Below, piece by piece: positions 1,378 to 19,990 of a stretch of 22,513 bases of DNA. The DNA lies in IMG/VR virus record IMGVR_UViG_3300034104_001062, positions 1 to 22,513 of that record; one strand, written 5' to 3'. The translations under genes were made by a program, and so were the position numbers. The DNA comes from a virus. The notes beneath the pieces are model-generated. The model saw only the letters and a program-made list of their open reading frames with translations, was not told where the DNA came from and made no database searches. The first letter of the stretch is position 1, and each line of letters opens with the position of its first letter.

Positions 1378-1417
1378 ACACGCGGTATTTGCAATGTATA
1401 ACAAAACCTGATACTCT
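1365..1417 (+). promoter_or_regulatory. Promoter of moron-like cassette 1 with operator-like palindrome
   Basis: TTGCAA (1389-1394) and TACTCT (1412-1417) are separated by exactly 17 bases, and the -10 element is preceded by TGA, giving an extended -10. Inside the spacer lies TGTATAACA (1395-1403), whose reverse complement TGTTATACA occurs at almost the same place in the second cassette promoter (14366-14374). A 19-base upstream block (1365-1383) matches 14314-14332 at 17 of 19 positions; it overlaps the end of the epimerase gene. The start of transcription would fall near 1424, where the conserved leader begins. Confidence 0.62.
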
Positions 1418-1423
1418 CTTGTT

Positions 1424-1460
1424 ATAGGCGTAGGGCAACCTACTAGGACAGGAGTAAAAA
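1424..1460 (+). ncRNA. Structured 5' leader with GNRA-tetraloop hairpin, copy 1
   Basis: GTAGG (1430-1434) and CCTAC (1439-1443) form a perfect five-base-pair stem closed by the GNRA tetraloop GCAA. Bases 1424-1450 align without gaps to 14394-14420 with three differences: two form a compensatory U-A to C-G pair in the stem and the third changes GCAA to GAAA, also GNRA. This pattern supports a conserved RNA fold. The ribosome binding sequence GGAG (1451-1454) lies just downstream, seven to eight bases after the hairpin, so the element could tune translation or mRNA stability. Confidence 0.6.
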
Positions 1461-1811
1461 ATGCGCAAGGCATTTAAGGTAACAAAGAAAACGCAAGAAG
1501 ATCTGTATGGTGCGTTTGACACCTACGATGCAGAAGTTTCAATGGGCAATTACAAAGCAGACCTATGGGACATTGACGAACCAGATACTTTGTTAGTAAA
1601 TGGCGCAGAAGGTGCAGCTATGTTTTTGAGTTGCGCTCATGGTGAACTAATGAACTGCAATAACGCTATGGATTACAATTGGGATCGCGCAGATTATGGT
1701 CGTGCCTACCGCGCTCATGCACGAATTACAAAACTAATGGATCAGGTTTTAGAAGTTTACAAAGATGAAATTGTAAGCAACTATTACGGATACTGGGAAG
1801 TTAAATCCTGA
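1461..1811 (+). CDS. Unknown 116-aa acidic protein of moron-like cassette 1
   Basis: I do not recognise this protein. It starts with a basic stretch (MRKAFKVTKK) followed by an acidic, aromatic-rich body (YGAFDTYDAE, ADLWDIDEPD, NNAMDYNWDRADYGRAYRAH) and a helical C-terminal half, with no signal peptide or membrane span and two Cys. ATG 1461 follows GGAGTAAAAA. The gene sits between sugar and structural genes but has its own promoter, leader and terminator, the organisation of a moron, so it is probably expressed independently of the virion genes. It shows no obvious similarity to the protein of the second cassette at 14433. Confidence 0.8.
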   Translation: MRKAFKVTKKTQEDLYGAFDTYDAEVSMGNYKADLWDIDEPDTLLVNGAEGAAMFLSCAHGELMNCNNAMDYNWDRADYGRAYRAHARITKLMDQVLEVYKDEIVSNYYGYWEVKS

Positions 1812-1823
1812 CCGACTAACTCA

Positions 1824-1857
1824 GCAAACAGCCCTGCCTGACGGTGGGGCTGTTTGC
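1824..1857 (+). terminator. Terminator-like hairpin of cassette 1
   Basis: GCAAACAGCCC (1824-1834) pairs perfectly with GGGCTGTTTGC (1847-1857), and the inner TGCC/GGTG segments extend the stem through two G-U wobbles to fifteen pairs around a TGAC loop. The bases after it (GTTTGTCTG) are only moderately T-rich, so termination may be partial. The 20-base core 1831-1850 recurs exactly at 14679-14698. Confidence 0.7.
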
Positions 1858-12535: not shown

Positions 12536-12778
12536 ATGGCCTTACTTGACGATCTAGAAACTGTTTCCAAAAGCAGCTATGAATGTTCTATTAAGCGCGT
12601 ACTAAAGCAACTGAACGCAAAAGAATCAGCAGCCCTAACCAAACTAATAGATGACCCTGATACAAGCCCAACAAGTTTATCTAGGGTTTTAACAAAAAAT
12701 GGTTTTGAGATTAGCCGCCAAACAATTCACAGACACCGCAGGCGCGGTATTAAAGACATTGGATGTACCTGCCCATGA
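12536..12778 (+). CDS. Helix-turn-helix DNA-binding protein
   Basis: The 80-residue protein starts at ATG 12536 after AAAGGTGG. It opens with a helix (MALLDDLETVSKSSYECSIKRVLKQL in parts), and residues about 40-70 (DTSPTSLSRVLTKNGFEISRQTIHRHRRRG) form a helix-turn-helix with a basic recognition helix. A short C-terminus holds two Cys (GCTCP). Similar short proteins accompany metallophosphoesterase or terminase genes in actinophages, so it could be a regulator or a terminase small-subunit-like DNA-binding protein. The tandem repeats just upstream are candidate binding sites. It overlaps the next gene by four bases. Confidence 0.62.
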   Translation: MALLDDLETVSKSSYECSIKRVLKQLNAKESAALTKLIDDPDTSPTSLSRVLTKNGFEISRQTIHRHRRRGIKDIGCTCP

Positions 12779-13953
12779 GCCTTACAGATGATCTATCTAA
12801 ATTAGGCGATGACGAACAGCGCAAGCGCGTAGCCAAATCTATTCCAGCAGGATTTGAACCCGGCATTGAATACGATTCAAGCGGTGGCGTTCTGCGTTCA
12901 GTACCACGACCAGCAGGTGATGAACCTGATCATGCTGAACTACTAGCTGAGTTTGAACTAGACCCTGCTAAGTGGCGTATAACAGGTCTACGCCGTAGCA
13001 AGTGGCAGCGTTGGGATGGCGAATGGCTGGAATCATTTAGAGCCACGTTCGTACCTACAACAGGCACACACCACGTTCTCATAGATGATCTACTGGAAAT
13101 TGTAGGGAAGTGGAAACCTAGCAATACCCCTAGGAAGCCCACAGAAGCCCGTACAGGCTCGATGGCCTATGTTGTGGTACTAGCAGACACCCAAGTTGGA
13201 AAGATTGACGGTGGTGGCTCTGAACAAATAATTAAAAACGTATTACACAAAACAGATTTAGCTGTTGCCAGACTCAAAGAACTACGCAAGGCAGGGCGCG
13301 ACATTGGAACGGTCTATCTGCCGCAGCTGGGCGATTGCATAGAAGGGTTCAGTAGTCAGGGCGGCAAAAATGTTTGGCGAACGGATTTGGATTTAACTTC
13401 ACAAATTCGTGTCTATCGCCGTTTGTTATTGCACATGGTTAAGGCATTTGCGCCACTAGCTGACAAAGTGATTGTGCCATGTGTTCCCGGTAATCACGAT
13501 GAAGCGGTGCGTATTGGTAATTCGATGGCTACGACTTACACAGATTCATTTGCCCTAGATGCTGCTTCTGCCGTTGCTGATGCGCTGGCAGATCACCCAG
13601 ATTACAAACACATAAGTTTTACCTTTCCTAAATACGACACATTGACGGTCACATTAGACATAGCTGGAACAGTTGTAGGTCTAGCTCATGGACACCAATG
13701 CAGGGGTAAGGCAGTGGACTGGTGGAAGAACATGGCACATGGGCAACAGGACATAGGCGAAGCTACTTTGCTATTGACCGGCCACTATCACCATTTGCGA
13801 ATTGAACAGTCAGGGCGCAAGACTTGGATACAAGCACCTGCATTAGATGGCGGCTCAACATGGTTTGAAAATTCATCAGGGCAGGCCGCACCAGCAGGAA
13901 TGCTTACATTAACAGTCGGACAAGGTAGGTGGGATGATGCCAAAATCTTGTAG
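12775..13953 (+). CDS. Calcineurin-like metallophosphoesterase
   Basis: ATG 12775 overlaps the HTH stop (ATGA). In the 392-residue product the metallophosphoesterase motifs are in order: Asp138-Thr-Gln140 (LADTQVGK), Gly186-Asp187 (QLGDCIE), Gly239-Asn-His-Asp-Glu243, His305-Gly-His307 (AHGHQ) and Gly336-His-Tyr-His-His340. The first motif is D-x-Q where the family consensus is D-x-H, so one metal ligand position is altered. An N-terminal 125-residue region with WRITGLRRSKWQRW and an acidic stretch has no known role. Such phage enzymes are related to SbcD-type nucleases or phosphodiesterases; substrate unknown. Confidence 0.85.
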   Translation: MSLTDDLSKLGDDEQRKRVAKSIPAGFEPGIEYDSSGGVLRSVPRPAGDEPDHAELLAEFELDPAKWRITGLRRSKWQRWDGEWLESFRATFVPTTGTHHVLIDDLLEIVGKWKPSNTPRKPTEARTGSMAYVVVLADTQVGKIDGGGSEQIIKNVLHKTDLAVARLKELRKAGRDIGTVYLPQLGDCIEGFSSQGGKNVWRTDLDLTSQIRVYRRLLLHMVKAFAPLADKVIVPCVPGNHDEAVRIGNSMATTYTDSFALDAASAVADALADHPDYKHISFTFPKYDTLTVTLDIAGTVVGLAHGHQCRGKAVDWWKNMAHGQQDIGEATLLLTGHYHHLRIEQSGRKTWIQAPALDGGSTWFENSSGQAAPAGMLTLTVGQGRWDDAKIL

Positions 13954-14313: not shown

Positions 14314-14387
14314 AAAAACCCTATAAACACGCCATTTTTTAGGTATTTCCCAATTGGCTTGCATTTGTTATACAGGTATGCCAAGAT
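14314..14387 (+). promoter_or_regulatory. Promoter of moron-like cassette 2 with operator-like palindrome
   Basis: TTGCAT (14359-14364) aligns exactly with the -35 of cassette 1 when the leaders are aligned (constant offset 12970). The matching -10 position holds CAAGAT (14382-14387), a weak element with the conserved A and T. TGTTATACA (14366-14374) lies in the spacer. The upstream block 14314-14332 matches 1365-1383 at 17 of 19 bases, but is 20 bases farther from the -35 than in cassette 1. Confidence 0.5.
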
Positions 14388-14393
14388 CATTAC

Positions 14394-14432
14394 ATAGGCG
14401 CAGGGAAACCTGCTAGGACAAAGGAAATCAAA
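14394..14432 (+). ncRNA. Structured 5' leader with GNRA-tetraloop hairpin, copy 2
   Basis: GCAGG (14400-14404) pairs with CCTGC (14409-14413) around GAAA. In 27 aligned bases it differs from copy 1 at three positions: a compensatory stem pair and one loop base that keeps the GNRA pattern. The sequence CTAGGACA follows the stem in both, then the ribosome binding sequence AAAGGA (14420-14425). Confidence 0.6.
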
Positions 14433-14663
14433 ATGCATCCGACAGTAGAACAGAACAAAGCACACCGCGAAGATCTTAGCTGGGTAAAAGTCGGCAAGTC
14501 TGAATACATGAACTCAAACGGCACAACAATTAAGAAAGACGTAAATTCGGGCTACTGGTTCATCACTGACATAGACGGTAACAACATTAAGTATTTTGCT
14601 CGTACCTATGGTCACGCAAGTTTAACAAATGCAAAATACCATGCAGAAAGATTTGAACTCTAA
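14433..14663 (+). CDS. Unknown 76-aa protein of moron-like cassette 2
   Basis: The protein has a polar N-terminus (MHPTVEQNKAHREDL), a compact beta-like segment with SEYMNSNGTTIKKDVNSGYWFITDIDGNN in pieces, and a helix near the end (SLTNAKYHAERFEL). Small proteins of this composition occur in actinophages, but I know no function. It has its own promoter, leader and terminator, independent of the neighbouring operons, and although its control elements match cassette 1 the protein does not. Confidence 0.75.
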   Translation: MHPTVEQNKAHREDLSWVKVGKSEYMNSNGTTIKKDVNSGYWFITDIDGNNIKYFARTYGHASLTNAKYHAERFEL

Positions 14664-14671
14664 AAATTTAC

Positions 14672-14705
14672 GCAACGCGCCCTGCCTGACGGTGGGGCGT
14701 TTTGC
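14672..14705 (+). terminator. Terminator of cassette 2
   Basis: GCAACGC and GCGTTTTGC flank a core GCCCTGCCTGACGGTGGGGC (14679-14698) that is identical to the core of the cassette 1 terminator. The stem continues around a TGAC loop, with T-rich sequence (GTTTTGCCTTTG) at its foot. The outer arms differ from copy 1 while pairing is kept. Confidence 0.68.
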
Positions 14706-14730
14706 CTTTGTTAGACAGTTCGTATAACGT
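14702..14730 (+). promoter_or_regulatory. Candidate promoter for the Mom-like gene, possibly leaderless
   Basis: TTGCCT (14702-14707) and TAACGT (14725-14730) are separated by 17 bases. The start of transcription would fall at about 14737, right at the ATG 14738, and no ribosome binding sequence is visible. This fits a leaderless mRNA, common in actinobacteria. GTATAAC (14722-14728) resembles the operator-like nonamer of the cassettes but is incomplete. Confidence 0.4.
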
Positions 14731-14737
14731 CAGACAC

Positions 14738-15406
14738 ATGAAGCAGATGCAGTGGCAGTCAAGTTTTTTTGACGTACTAGATGGGTACTCGGTTGCACCG
14801 ATAAAACCACAAGATGCTGATTACCTAATTCTGAATGTTCATTATGCAAAGCGCAGGCCGTCAATCAGTTATGCCTTTGGTTTATTCAACGCAGGCCAGC
14901 TAGTCGGAGTAGTGACGTATGGAACGCCAGCATCATCTACCCTGCTACGCGGTGTCTGTGGTGACGATTGGGCGCAGCACGTTCTGGAACTAAACCGGTT
15001 GGTGTTAGTTAATAACCAGCCACACGAAGCCAGTAGATTGGTTGGCGCATCATTAAAACTGTTGCCTAAACCCAGCATCATTGTTAGTTACGCAGACACA
15101 AAACAAAAGCATGAAGGCATTGTTTATCAGGCCACAAACTTTATTTACACAGGGTTGAGCAGTAAATTCCGCGATCCAGTAGTGCGTGGTTTAGAACATC
15201 AGCATCACGCGACCTATGCACATGGCCTAACTAATAAACAGCTAATAGAAAAGTATGGTGAGGACAATGTTTACTTCATCGAACGATCTAGAAAACACCG
15301 TTACATAATTTTTGTTGGTTCTAAAACACAACGTAAACAAATGCTAAAAGACTTGCGGTATGAAATCCAACCGTATCCAAATAAAGAAAGGTCTGCCAAT
15401 GGCTGA
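14738..15406 (+). CDS. Mom-like DNA modification protein (GNAT fold)
   Basis: The 222-residue product, counted from ATG 14738, has the sequence features of the phage Mu Mom family, which converts adenine in DNA to a carbamoylmethyl-type derivative and protects phage DNA from restriction. Visible are the His35-Tyr36 pair (VHYAKRRPS), the GNAT-like strands LFNAGQLVGVVTYG and VCGDDWAQHVLELNRLVL, and VSYADTKQKHEGIVYQATNFIYTG with Ser117 and Asp120 at the positions expected for Mom-type active-site residues. A basic C-terminus (KTQRKQMLKDLRYEIQPYP) could bind DNA. An upstream TTG (14702) in frame overlaps the candidate promoter and terminator and is less likely. I infer the reaction from family only. 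Confidence 0.78.
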   Translation: MKQMQWQSSFFDVLDGYSVAPIKPQDADYLILNVHYAKRRPSISYAFGLFNAGQLVGVVTYGTPASSTLLRGVCGDDWAQHVLELNRLVLVNNQPHEASRLVGASLKLLPKPSIIVSYADTKQKHEGIVYQATNFIYTGLSSKFRDPVVRGLEHQHHATYAHGLTNKQLIEKYGEDNVYFIERSRKHRYIIFVGSKTQRKQMLKDLRYEIQPYPNKERSANG

Positions 15407-15557
15407 CGAACAGAAAGAAACGAAAGAAAATCTAATTGCCCTGCGACTGAATAATGAGCAGATGCTGGCAGTTAGACAATGGGCGCATCAACATAACGCC
15501 AATGTAAGTCAAGTAATCAGATCGGCAATAGAACTAATGACAGGAGCAAAACAATGA
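15399..15557 (+). CDS. Ribbon-helix-helix-like regulator
   Basis: The 52-residue protein has a basic/acidic start, then ENLIALRLNNEQMLAVRQWAHQHNANVSQVIRSAIELM, the strand-helix-helix of Arc/MetJ-type proteins: a strand (LIALRLN), helix, turn with Asn, and helix beginning VSQVIRSAIE. ATG 15399 follows AAAGAAAGG (15384-15392). A longer frame from ATG 15360 lies inside the Mom-like gene and lacks such a site. It may control the Mom-like gene or the replication genes next to it; no target site is identified. Confidence 0.68.
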   Translation: MADEQKETKENLIALRLNNEQMLAVRQWAHQHNANVSQVIRSAIELMTGAKQ

Positions 15558-16980: not shown

Positions 16981-17319
16981 ATGCTAAAAGATTGCGACCA
17001 TGAAGCGTGGCTAGATTCTGGAATGTGCCTAATCTGCACCGCGCCAGATTCGTGGATGTATTCAGCTGGTTGCAGAGATTCGCACCCTGACACTTGCTTT
17101 CCAGAAAATGACGAACCCCACCTATACGCCATAGCCAAACGATTATGTGAAGAATGCCCAGTTGTAGGATTCTGCCTAGAGATTGGCCTAGATGAGAAAT
17201 GGGGTATGTGGGGCGGAATGACCCCAGACGAACGGTACAAATTAGCCAAGTCTGGCAAAGTACCTAAAGACAAACTAGATAAACGCCGATTTTTACGGGT
17301 TTTTGCCTACACAAATTAG
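16981..17319 (+). CDS. WhiB-family protein with extra N-terminal Cys/His motif
   Basis: The 112-residue protein has the WhiB core: Cys31 (GCRDSHPDTCFPEN, which replaces the usual C...ELFFP), then Cys56-x2-Cys59-x5-Cys65 and the turn GMWGGMTPDER, with a basic C-terminus (KDKLDKRRFLR). WhiB proteins bind a 4Fe-4S cluster and interact with the host primary sigma factor; phage copies may alter host transcription or block superinfection. Unusually, residues 5-19 form a further Cys-x-His ... Cys-x2-Cys set (CDHEAWLDSGMCLIC) like the free small protein at 13934. An extra Cys39 lies close to the first ligand. Confidence 0.82.
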   Translation: MLKDCDHEAWLDSGMCLICTAPDSWMYSAGCRDSHPDTCFPENDEPHLYAIAKRLCEECPVVGFCLEIGLDEKWGMWGGMTPDERYKLAKSGKVPKDKLDKRRFLRVFAYTN

Positions 17320-17364: not shown

Positions 17365-17446
17365 TGGACAACTACCCCAATTCGTGTATTGTTATACACA
17401 TAAGGAGAACCACAGGGGTTCTAGAGAAGCAAAGGAAACAAAGCAA
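17365..17446 (+). promoter_or_regulatory. Candidate promoter, operator-like site and leader hairpin (third, divergent copy)
   Basis: TGGACA (17365-17370) and TATTGT (17387-17392) are 16 bases apart. TGTTATACA (17390-17398), identical to the site in cassette 2, overlaps the -10. A leader hairpin follows: AGAACC (17406-17411) pairs with GGTTCT (17417-17422) around ACAGG, ending in CTAG as in copies 1 and 2, and AAAGGA (17431-17436) is the ribosome site. The stem sequence is unrelated to copies 1 and 2, so kinship is uncertain. Confidence 0.42.
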
Positions 17447-17743
17447 ATGGAAACTACATACATAACACCAGCTGAAACAGCAAAGCTAATTCGCGCAGAA
17501 CTAAAGGCCGCATTCGCAGGCGTTAAATTTTCAGTACGCAAAGAACATTTTGCAGTATGGGTAACAATTCCAGCAACAGCATCAGTAACAGTAGCTGACG
17601 TAGAAGCAATCACAAAAAACTACGAAGGTTCAACATTTGACGGCAGCATTGACCTAGCATCAAACCAGATTCACCTAGTAGACGGCAAGAAAATTCAGTA
17701 CCTAGCAGATTATGTATTCGTACAGAAAGATCAGGTGGCGTAA
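17447..17743 (+). CDS. LPD29-like domain protein
   Basis: The 98-residue protein has the arrangement of the LPD29 domain found in large polyvalent phage proteins and as free small phage proteins: a start with ETAKLIRAELKAAFAGVKFSVRKEHF, a strand AVWVTIP, and the segment YEGSTFDGSIDLASNQIHL. The domain's function is unknown. ATG 17447 follows AAAGGA; the longer frame from 17303 would run through the promoter and leader, so I exclude it. It opens the recombination operon and overlaps the next gene by one base. Confidence 0.68.
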   Translation: METTYITPAETAKLIRAELKAAFAGVKFSVRKEHFAVWVTIPATASVTVADVEAITKNYEGSTFDGSIDLASNQIHLVDGKKIQYLADYVFVQKDQVA

Positions 17744-19283: not shown

Positions 19284-19671
19284 CTACTGGATTGACGGCG
19301 AACCTGCACCACAGGGTTCTAAAAATGGTTTTGTTAAAAATGGTCGTGTTGTAATGGTTGAATCTAGCAAAAAGGTAAAGCCTTGGCGCGAAGCGGTTGC
19401 AGCAACTACACAAAAACAAGTCACCTGTTCATTACAGAATGCGGTAGAAATAGCACTGGTATTTCATTTGCCTAGACCTAAAACCGTCACCCGTAAATGG
19501 CCAGCTGTTAAACCTGATCTAGACAAACTGATTCGCAGCACATTTGACGGCCTAACAACTGGTGGTCTTTACACAGATGATGCCCTAGTTATAGCTGTTA
19601 GCGCATCTAAACAATACGCCACAGATCGTATTGGGTGTCAGGTAATAGCCAGCGAGGTTCAAGATGTTTAA
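19276..19671 (+). CDS. RusA-family Holliday junction resolvase
   Basis: The 131-residue protein counted from ATG 19276 has the RusA order: a start with YWIDGEPAPQGSKN, LVFHLPRPKT, then Asp81-Leu-Asp83 (KPDLDKLIRSTFDGL), where the family has DxDN, and Thr-Asp101-Asp102 (GLYTDDALV). Acidic residues in these places bind magnesium and cut four-way junctions. The usual Asn after the second Asp is Lys here. RusA acts with the annealing protein and SSB in recombination. It overlaps both neighbours by eight bases. Confidence 0.84.
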   Translation: MYSYWIDGEPAPQGSKNGFVKNGRVVMVESSKKVKPWREAVAATTQKQVTCSLQNAVEIALVFHLPRPKTVTRKWPAVKPDLDKLIRSTFDGLTTGGLYTDDALVIAVSASKQYATDRIGCQVIASEVQDV

Positions 19672-19990
19672 TACAGAACAAGCAAACTGTTTAGGGGTAG
19701 ACCCAGAGTTATTCTTTCCAATTGGAGCAATAGCACCATCTACTGAAACTACACTCAGACGAATCTGCATGAACTGCAACGTGTTCTGGCAATGCTATGA
19801 ATACGCGCTAAATGTAAAGGTGGATGGTTTCTGGGCAGGAACTACCGAATCACAACGCAAGACACTAAGAAAAGAATTGGGCATCGAAGCACAACGCATA
19901 GATGAACCATACAAAGAATCCTTTGAATCACAGTCAAGGGATGCTAAAAACAAACGCGCTGAACGCCAGCGCATGAGAGAAGCAGGATAA
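19664..19990 (+). CDS. WhiB-family iron-sulfur regulator
   Basis: The 108-residue protein has a classic WhiB set: Cys9, Cys35-x2-Cys38-x5-Cys44, the VDPELFFP segment at residues 12-19 and the turn GFWAGTTESQRKTLRKELG. The C-terminal tail is highly charged (QSRDAKNKRAERQRMREAG). It should bind a 4Fe-4S cluster and the host sigma factor. Placed between RusA and SSB, it is a second WhiB in addition to that at 16981; the two differ in sequence. Confidence 0.88.
   Translation: MFNTEQANCLGVDPELFFPIGAIAPSTETTLRRICMNCNVFWQCYEYALNVKVDGFWAGTTESQRKTLRKELGIEAQRIDEPYKESFESQSRDAKNKRAERQRMREAG

Follow-up and report, generated by a model that had tools for sequence, protein, structure and literature searches.

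Small hairpins placed early in phage transcripts are known from the nut boxB site of lambda, which has a 5-bp stem with a GNRA-type loop, and from HK022 put. The ompA, papA and aprE leaders and engineered 5′ hairpins likewise place a stem-loop near the mRNA 5′ end, with an open ribosome site and in front of unrelated coding sequences. In Cluster K mycobacteriophages and Cluster EF Microbacterium phages, SAS and extended SAS (ESAS) motifs lie upstream of the start codons of unrelated small genes (PMC3203893, PMC7302621), and according to their authors there is little support for RNA pairing of the ESAS inverted repeats (PMC3203893, PMC7302621). Microbacterium phages of Clusters EC, EG and EI have short repeated motifs in small intergenic gaps, which in EC and EG precede the start codons by 14–30 bp; the Cluster EG motif is an inverted repeat with the fixed DNA sequence GATCAACCNNGGTTGATC (PMC7302621).

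The element described here belongs to a known kind, the leader hairpin RNAs, and its closest published counterparts in actinobacterial phages are SAS/ESAS and the Microbacterium phage repeats. With SAS/ESAS it shares the repetition of one motif upstream of unrelated genes in similar places. However, SAS is a fixed 13-mer at the ribosome binding site (RBS) itself, whereas the leader hairpin lies upstream of the RBS, next to the promoter, and its pairing is strongly conserved; a 13-bp GGGATAGGAGCCC-like SAS motif at the RBS was not present in the leaders when these were read base by base. The EC, EG and EI motifs are similar short repeats upstream of starts, but that of EG is fixed DNA and not a covarying hairpin. 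In contrast to stabilisers of the ompA, papA and aprE type, the element is predicted usually to have about 6 nt before its stem, its flanks are conserved and it is repeated across one phage genome. Lambda nut boxB and HK022 put differ from it in that the present leaders have no boxA and a single small stem, in cassettes that are ended by terminators. A search of Rfam with the analysed DNA returned no match up to E 1, in agreement with the first-pass annotation, which knew of no named element of this form. An RNA mimic of a CRISPR repeat was also considered and rejected: 84,980 bacterial genomes contained three matches, all single copies without stems, no arrays and no host copy.

The analysed stretch (hereafter the window) is the 22,513-base virus record IMGVR_UViG_3300034104_001062, positions 1 to 22,513, with 44.7% GC. 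Its GC content and a WhiB gene resemble those of isolated phages of freshwater Nanopelagicales (PMC10202952), which as a pointer to the host is only a lead. The following features are relevant here.

1389–1417, plus strand: predicted promoter of cassette 1, TTGCAA (1389–1394), 17-nt spacer and TACTCT (1412–1417), assigned by eye and from the relatives' alignment
1395–1403, plus strand: dyad TGTATAACA, possible operator, in the spacer of the cassette 1 promoter
1424–1450, plus strand: leader element copy 1, AUAGGC, stem GUAGG (1430–1434), loop GCAA (1435–1438), stem CCUAC (1439–1443) and UAGGACA; predicted +1 at A1424
1450–1454, plus strand: Shine-Dalgarno sequence AGGAG of the cassette 1 gene, read from the sequence and unpaired in the predicted fold
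1461–1811, plus strand: cassette 1 gene, 116 aa, no family match
1824–1857, plus strand: cassette 1 terminator, 15 pairs followed by a T-rich stretch
14359–14387, plus strand: predicted promoter of cassette 2, TTGCAT, 17-nt spacer and CAAGAT (weak), from the alignment with relatives
14366–14374, plus strand: dyad TGTTATACA, the reverse complement of the cassette 1 form, in the spacer of the cassette 2 promoter
14394–14420, plus strand: leader element copy 2, AUAGGC, stem GCAGG (14400–14404), loop GAAA (14405–14408), stem CCUGC (14409–14413) and UAGGACA
14433–14663, plus strand: cassette 2 gene, 76 aa, no family match
14677–14700, plus strand: cassette 2 intrinsic terminator
17390–17398, plus strand: dyad TGTTATACA in the early promoter, inside GTGTATTGTTATACAC
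17400–17430, plus strand: third, divergent leader hairpin, of the early operon (hairpin 17400–17422), AUAAGG, stem AGAACC (17406–17411), loop ACAGG, stem GGUUCU (17417–17422) and AGAGAAGC
17447–17743, plus strand: opening gene of the early operon, downstream of the third hairpin; starts with ATG and has an LPD29 domain

The 27-nt copies at 1424–1450 and 14394–14420 align without gaps and with three differences, as the first-pass annotation had reported. T1431/C14401 and A1442/G14412 are the two sides of one stem pair and compensate each other (U-A versus C-G), while C1436/A14406 turns the loop GCAA into GAAA, both GNRA. When up to three mismatches were allowed, the two-copy pattern matched only the 1424 and 14394 sites in 22.5 kb (0.00 in shuffles). 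Folded alone, copy 1 reached −7.2 kcal/mol (z −2.1) and copy 2 −9.2 kcal/mol (z −3.4). The block begins at the predicted +1 of cassette 1, 6 nt past a −10-like hexamer, as had been claimed, the promoter hexamers there being weak; likewise, the 116- and 76-aa proteins behind the two copies proved to be unrelated to each other. The element is not limited to the cassettes, as had been supposed, since a third, divergent copy overlooked in that annotation starts the early operon (17400–17422; fold z −3.2). Thus, the window phage has three different stems, GUAGG, GCAGG and AGAACC. Because one covarying pair in two copies is weak evidence on its own, relatives were examined.

An exact scan of viral contigs matched six stretches. 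With the exonuclease/metallophosphoesterase gene at 12763–13953, we found about 40 close relatives, in which the equivalent site (site 2) was read independently of the hairpin. About half of them have a cassette with such a leader at this site, and in every one of these a stem lies at the position of the window's stem and its letters differ. Examples are GUUGG/CCAAC (L153), GAGGA/UCCUC with the loop GCAA (L137) or GCGA (L148), GCGG/CCGC (L158, L162, L167), GGAUG/CAUCC (L157) and GCGGA/UCCGC (L155). A covariance model made from eight leaders was searched over 51 whole records (the window and its relatives) and matched in 28 of them at E ≤0.5, the weakest of these matches being chance; matches below about 16 bits are mostly chance hits in coding sequence, and no phage has more than three convincing copies. 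Three places have copies, namely site 1 (5′ of the head-tail connector gene), site 2 (5′ of the early region) and the beginning of the early operon. In relatives, the element recurs both at equivalent and at different sites. The leader of the early operon is in some relatives canonical (AUAAGC-GAACC-GCAA-GGUUC-UAGGACA) and in others belongs to other classes, several of which have A-rich loops and other flanks.

Beyond this group the searches yielded little. Among the matches listed for a very loose free-stem pattern, 24 loci were rechecked, including all those of a second loose scan, and contained one weak model match (E 0.084), which is not a promoter-linked leader. With the early promoter motif as the only anchor, mostly unrelated contigs without the leader were retrieved, and all six contigs of this phage group among them carry the hairpin. 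Only one phage record, that of Pontimonas phage phiPsal1, matches the tail gene across more than half of its length, and it lacks the element. Within the group, the leader hairpin is absent from the gaps before late genes in one relative (G005, L319/L320), which suggests that it is restricted to early-type units. One of these late-region gaps has a candidate promoter (GCGTAAACTGAATCCATG) and may give rise to a leaderless mRNA.

The covariation anticipated from the two window copies was found at all five pairs in a set of 20 distinct leaders with a 5-bp stem and a four-base loop. Standard pairs occupy all 100 of the 100 stem cells, and changes on both sides occur at every one of the five pairs. 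Cells with two-sided changes numbered 34 compared with 9.0 in shuffles (none of 500 shuffles as high), and the covariation score was 0.94 versus 0.22; as the leaders share descent, these counts and those of the loops are not independent events. When the partners were slid by 1–3 columns, only 27–55% of the positions were paired. The closing GC pair is near-invariant (19/20 leaders). The least biased test of the stem is a search with the flanks alone (AUARGC...UAGGACA, stem ignored): all 26 distinct leader matches have a 4–5-bp stem with a GNRA loop, while chance matches elsewhere have zero to three outer pairs. In 40 of 41 folded leaders, the minimum-energy structure has a stem of 4 bp or more close to the predicted +1. 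A count of any such stem is, however, a weak statistic, since 46% of control gene starts show one too (stems of 5 bp or more: 22% of controls versus 33/40 leaders), and we therefore relied on covariation. The one leader that fails the simple stem rule (L154) has GUAGG/CCUGC around a 9-nt loop, read by eye.

Covariation alone would also be compatible with a DNA palindrome bound by a dimeric regulator, with the RNA hairpin as a by-product, because a symmetric DNA site would likewise give paired changes. The loops argue against such a site: of the 38 four-base loops in the wider set, GNRA is read on the sense strand in 31 and its antisense equivalent in none, and the elements lie upstream of an ORF on the same strand. 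This asymmetry points to RNA and not to a DNA operator. Moreover, the arms vary from 4 to 8 bp (mostly 5), several stem sequences occur within one genome, and two divergent leaders contain U-G pairs (L135, and L154 by eye). As an operator, the upstream dyad TGTTATACA is the better candidate, and we regard the palindrome as very improbable. On these comparative grounds, the leader is shown to be a real structured RNA element, conserved as a sense-strand fold in the leaders of the early operon and of exchangeable cassettes in one group of uncultured actinobacterial phages. The proposal of a small structured RNA element reused before unrelated genes is thus borne out by the five covarying pairs in 20 sequences and by its recurrence at various sites. 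As to the expectation that homologues keep both the stem and a GNRA loop, the first part held and the second did not, the other loops including GAUA, GUUA, UAAA, AAAA, ACACA and one of 9 nt. Given the early leaders with A-rich loops and other flanks, GNRA and UAGGACA are typical but not required, and the stem is the constant part.

The genes behind the leaders are exchangeable. The cassette 2 gene has a homologue, 80% identical, at site 1 of relative G010, which indicates that genes move between the sites. Comparison of the window, L003, L006, L135, L153 and G010 revealed gene cassettes swapped between leader and terminator and between sites 1 (1424–1863) and 2 (14359–14711); the MATKQKVTKALAELGA family, for instance, occupies site 1 in L003 and site 2 in L006, L135 and L153. 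Could the leader then be a sequence shared through recent cassette exchange and kept as a recombination seam without any RNA function? The upstream sequence, the leader and the terminator are common to cassettes at both sites, and L003 has window leader 1 before a different gene. Yet the two versions of this leader, the most similar alleles in the set, are identical through the promoter and the 27-nt element save for one swapped pair (U-A to C-G), and shared descent does not give compensated changes at five pairs. We find such a seam scarcely credible.

The gene directly after cassette 2 (14702–15406) encodes a Mom-like DNA modification protein (PF25680, E 1e-37; phrog_1384), and relatives have DNA methyltransferase-like or HNH-like genes, or no cassette, at or near this variable site. 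Elsewhere in the window, 16981–17319 encodes a WhiB protein (Pfam), 19664–19990 is a second cysteine-rich WhiB-like reading frame, recognized by eye only, and 21612–22175 matches a phage HslV-type peptidase family (phrog_1040, E 2e-19). Prophage morons were considered as well; Phage_integrase is absent from 32 related records, several of which are fragmentary.

The hairpin travels in a standard module consisting of a dyad promoter, the hairpin leader, a small gene and a terminator, and this arrangement serves both the early operon and exchangeable accessory genes. In the cassette leaders, a −35 hexamer and a 17-nt spacer are followed by a −10 hexamer ending 6–7 nt before the element (assigned by eye). 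A consensus promoter scan of the window listed neither cassette promoter, the hexamers being weak; clear promoters, only some of them near consensus, were seen only in relatives (e.g. TTGACT-17-TATACT in L006). The window contains three instances of the 9-bp dyad TGTTATACA/TGTATAACA (0.54 expected), one at each hairpin leader and none elsewhere. It is located between the −35 and −10 hexamers of the cassette promoters and overlaps the −10 hexamer and the start in the early promoter. Likely, the dyad is a shared candidate operator of one regulator, part of it resembling a −10 box. A 65-aa protein encoded at 15360–15557 has a weak match (E 8e-4) to phrog_876, a family of phage transcriptional repressors. 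In two relatives (L145, L159), the TGTTATACA dyad lies without a hairpin directly upstream of the 65-aa repressor-like gene, a position that would suit an autoregulated regulator.

The terminators of cassettes 1 and 2 are 85% identical (family D12), and they bear on a further reading, by which the hairpin acts on RNA polymerase close to the promoter, as an antitermination or pause signal of the put or boxB kind. Its site at the predicted transcript start, its presence also on the long early operon and its small GNRA-loop form, as in lambda-type boxB, would agree with this. A processive antiterminator would, however, defeat the intrinsic terminators that end both cassettes right after one gene, and neither a boxA-like sequence nor a second stem-loop was seen in the leaders. 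We consider this reading improbable.

At a roughly even chance, we favour a cis-acting leader that stabilises the mRNA at its 5′ end and insulates the ribosome site, with reuse in early as well as exchangeable accessory cassettes. According to this proposal, a hairpin with a 4–8-bp stem, in most cases closed by a stable loop that is GNRA or rich in A, would stand where early-type phage mRNAs are predicted to begin, slow their decay from the 5′ end and keep the downstream purine-rich ribosome site single-stranded, so that any gene placed behind it would be expressed reliably. Stem letters would be free to drift because only pairing would matter. A stabiliser and insulator would explain why pairing is conserved while its letters are free, why very stable loops are preferred and why any gene may follow, and also why the hairpin keeps to the boundary of the ribosome during initiation. 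Its base is 17–24 nt from the AUG in 47 leaders, and the Shine-Dalgarno sequence and AUG are mostly unpaired in the predicted folds of 41 leaders. According to reviews, bacterial mRNAs are stabilised by 5′ stem-loops, and one placed too close to the Shine-Dalgarno sequence gives no help (PMC7509114, PMC3997798). We infer the transcript starts, and any effects on stability, translation and function, from the sequences.

Simple masking of the 5′ end is nevertheless not a clean fit. If the predicted +1 is right, the leaders have unpaired 5′ tails of 0–8 nt (6 nt in 27/41), and about six unpaired nucleotides suffice for a B. subtilis-type pyrophosphohydrolase, whose minimum is two (PMC3997798). 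In addition, UAGGACA is conserved at 1.2–1.6 bits, AUARGC and UAGGACA are kept in most cassette leaders, and this flank conservation exceeds what a pure stability hairpin needs. The unpaired bases and conserved cassette flanks thus leave room for a protein or a standby site. The hairpin and its flanks may be bound by an RNA-binding protein of phage or host, which would govern the translation or decay of the early and the cassette mRNAs together as a post-transcriptional regulon, a minor but real possibility. The conserved AUARGC/UAGGACA flanks, the near-invariant closing pair and the presence of one element before unrelated genes and the early operon would agree with such a protein, but the early-leader class has GAGAGAAGC in place of UAGGACA and non-GNRA loops, the stem sequence is free even inside one phage, and no candidate protein was found. 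Still tentative, and in our view unlikely, is the broader idea that the hairpin with its AUARGC/UAGGACA flanks is a recognition element of phage-encoded RNA-level control, which would mark early and accessory mRNAs for preferential stability or translation during infection.

Alternatively, the leader might provide ribosome standby and enhance translation: the 30S subunit would land on the purine-rich flanks beside the hairpin, where UAGGA is Shine-Dalgarno-like, and then shift to the main site. The AGGA of UAGGACA just upstream of a second Shine-Dalgarno sequence, the stem-to-AUG spacing and the open Shine-Dalgarno sequence and AUG are all consistent with this. Against it, UAGGACA is missing from many early-class leaders, and on sequence such a leader is hardly distinguishable from a stabiliser and insulator; we rate standby as rather unlikely.

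Repeated start-associated motifs in actinobacterial phages have previously been described without a clear case at the RNA level. In the present leaders, the compensatory changes are direct evidence that selection acts on an RNA fold. For actinobacteria, the hairpin leader offers an expression part that can be tested, and in phages whose hosts are uncultured it serves as a marker by which accessory cassettes can be found.
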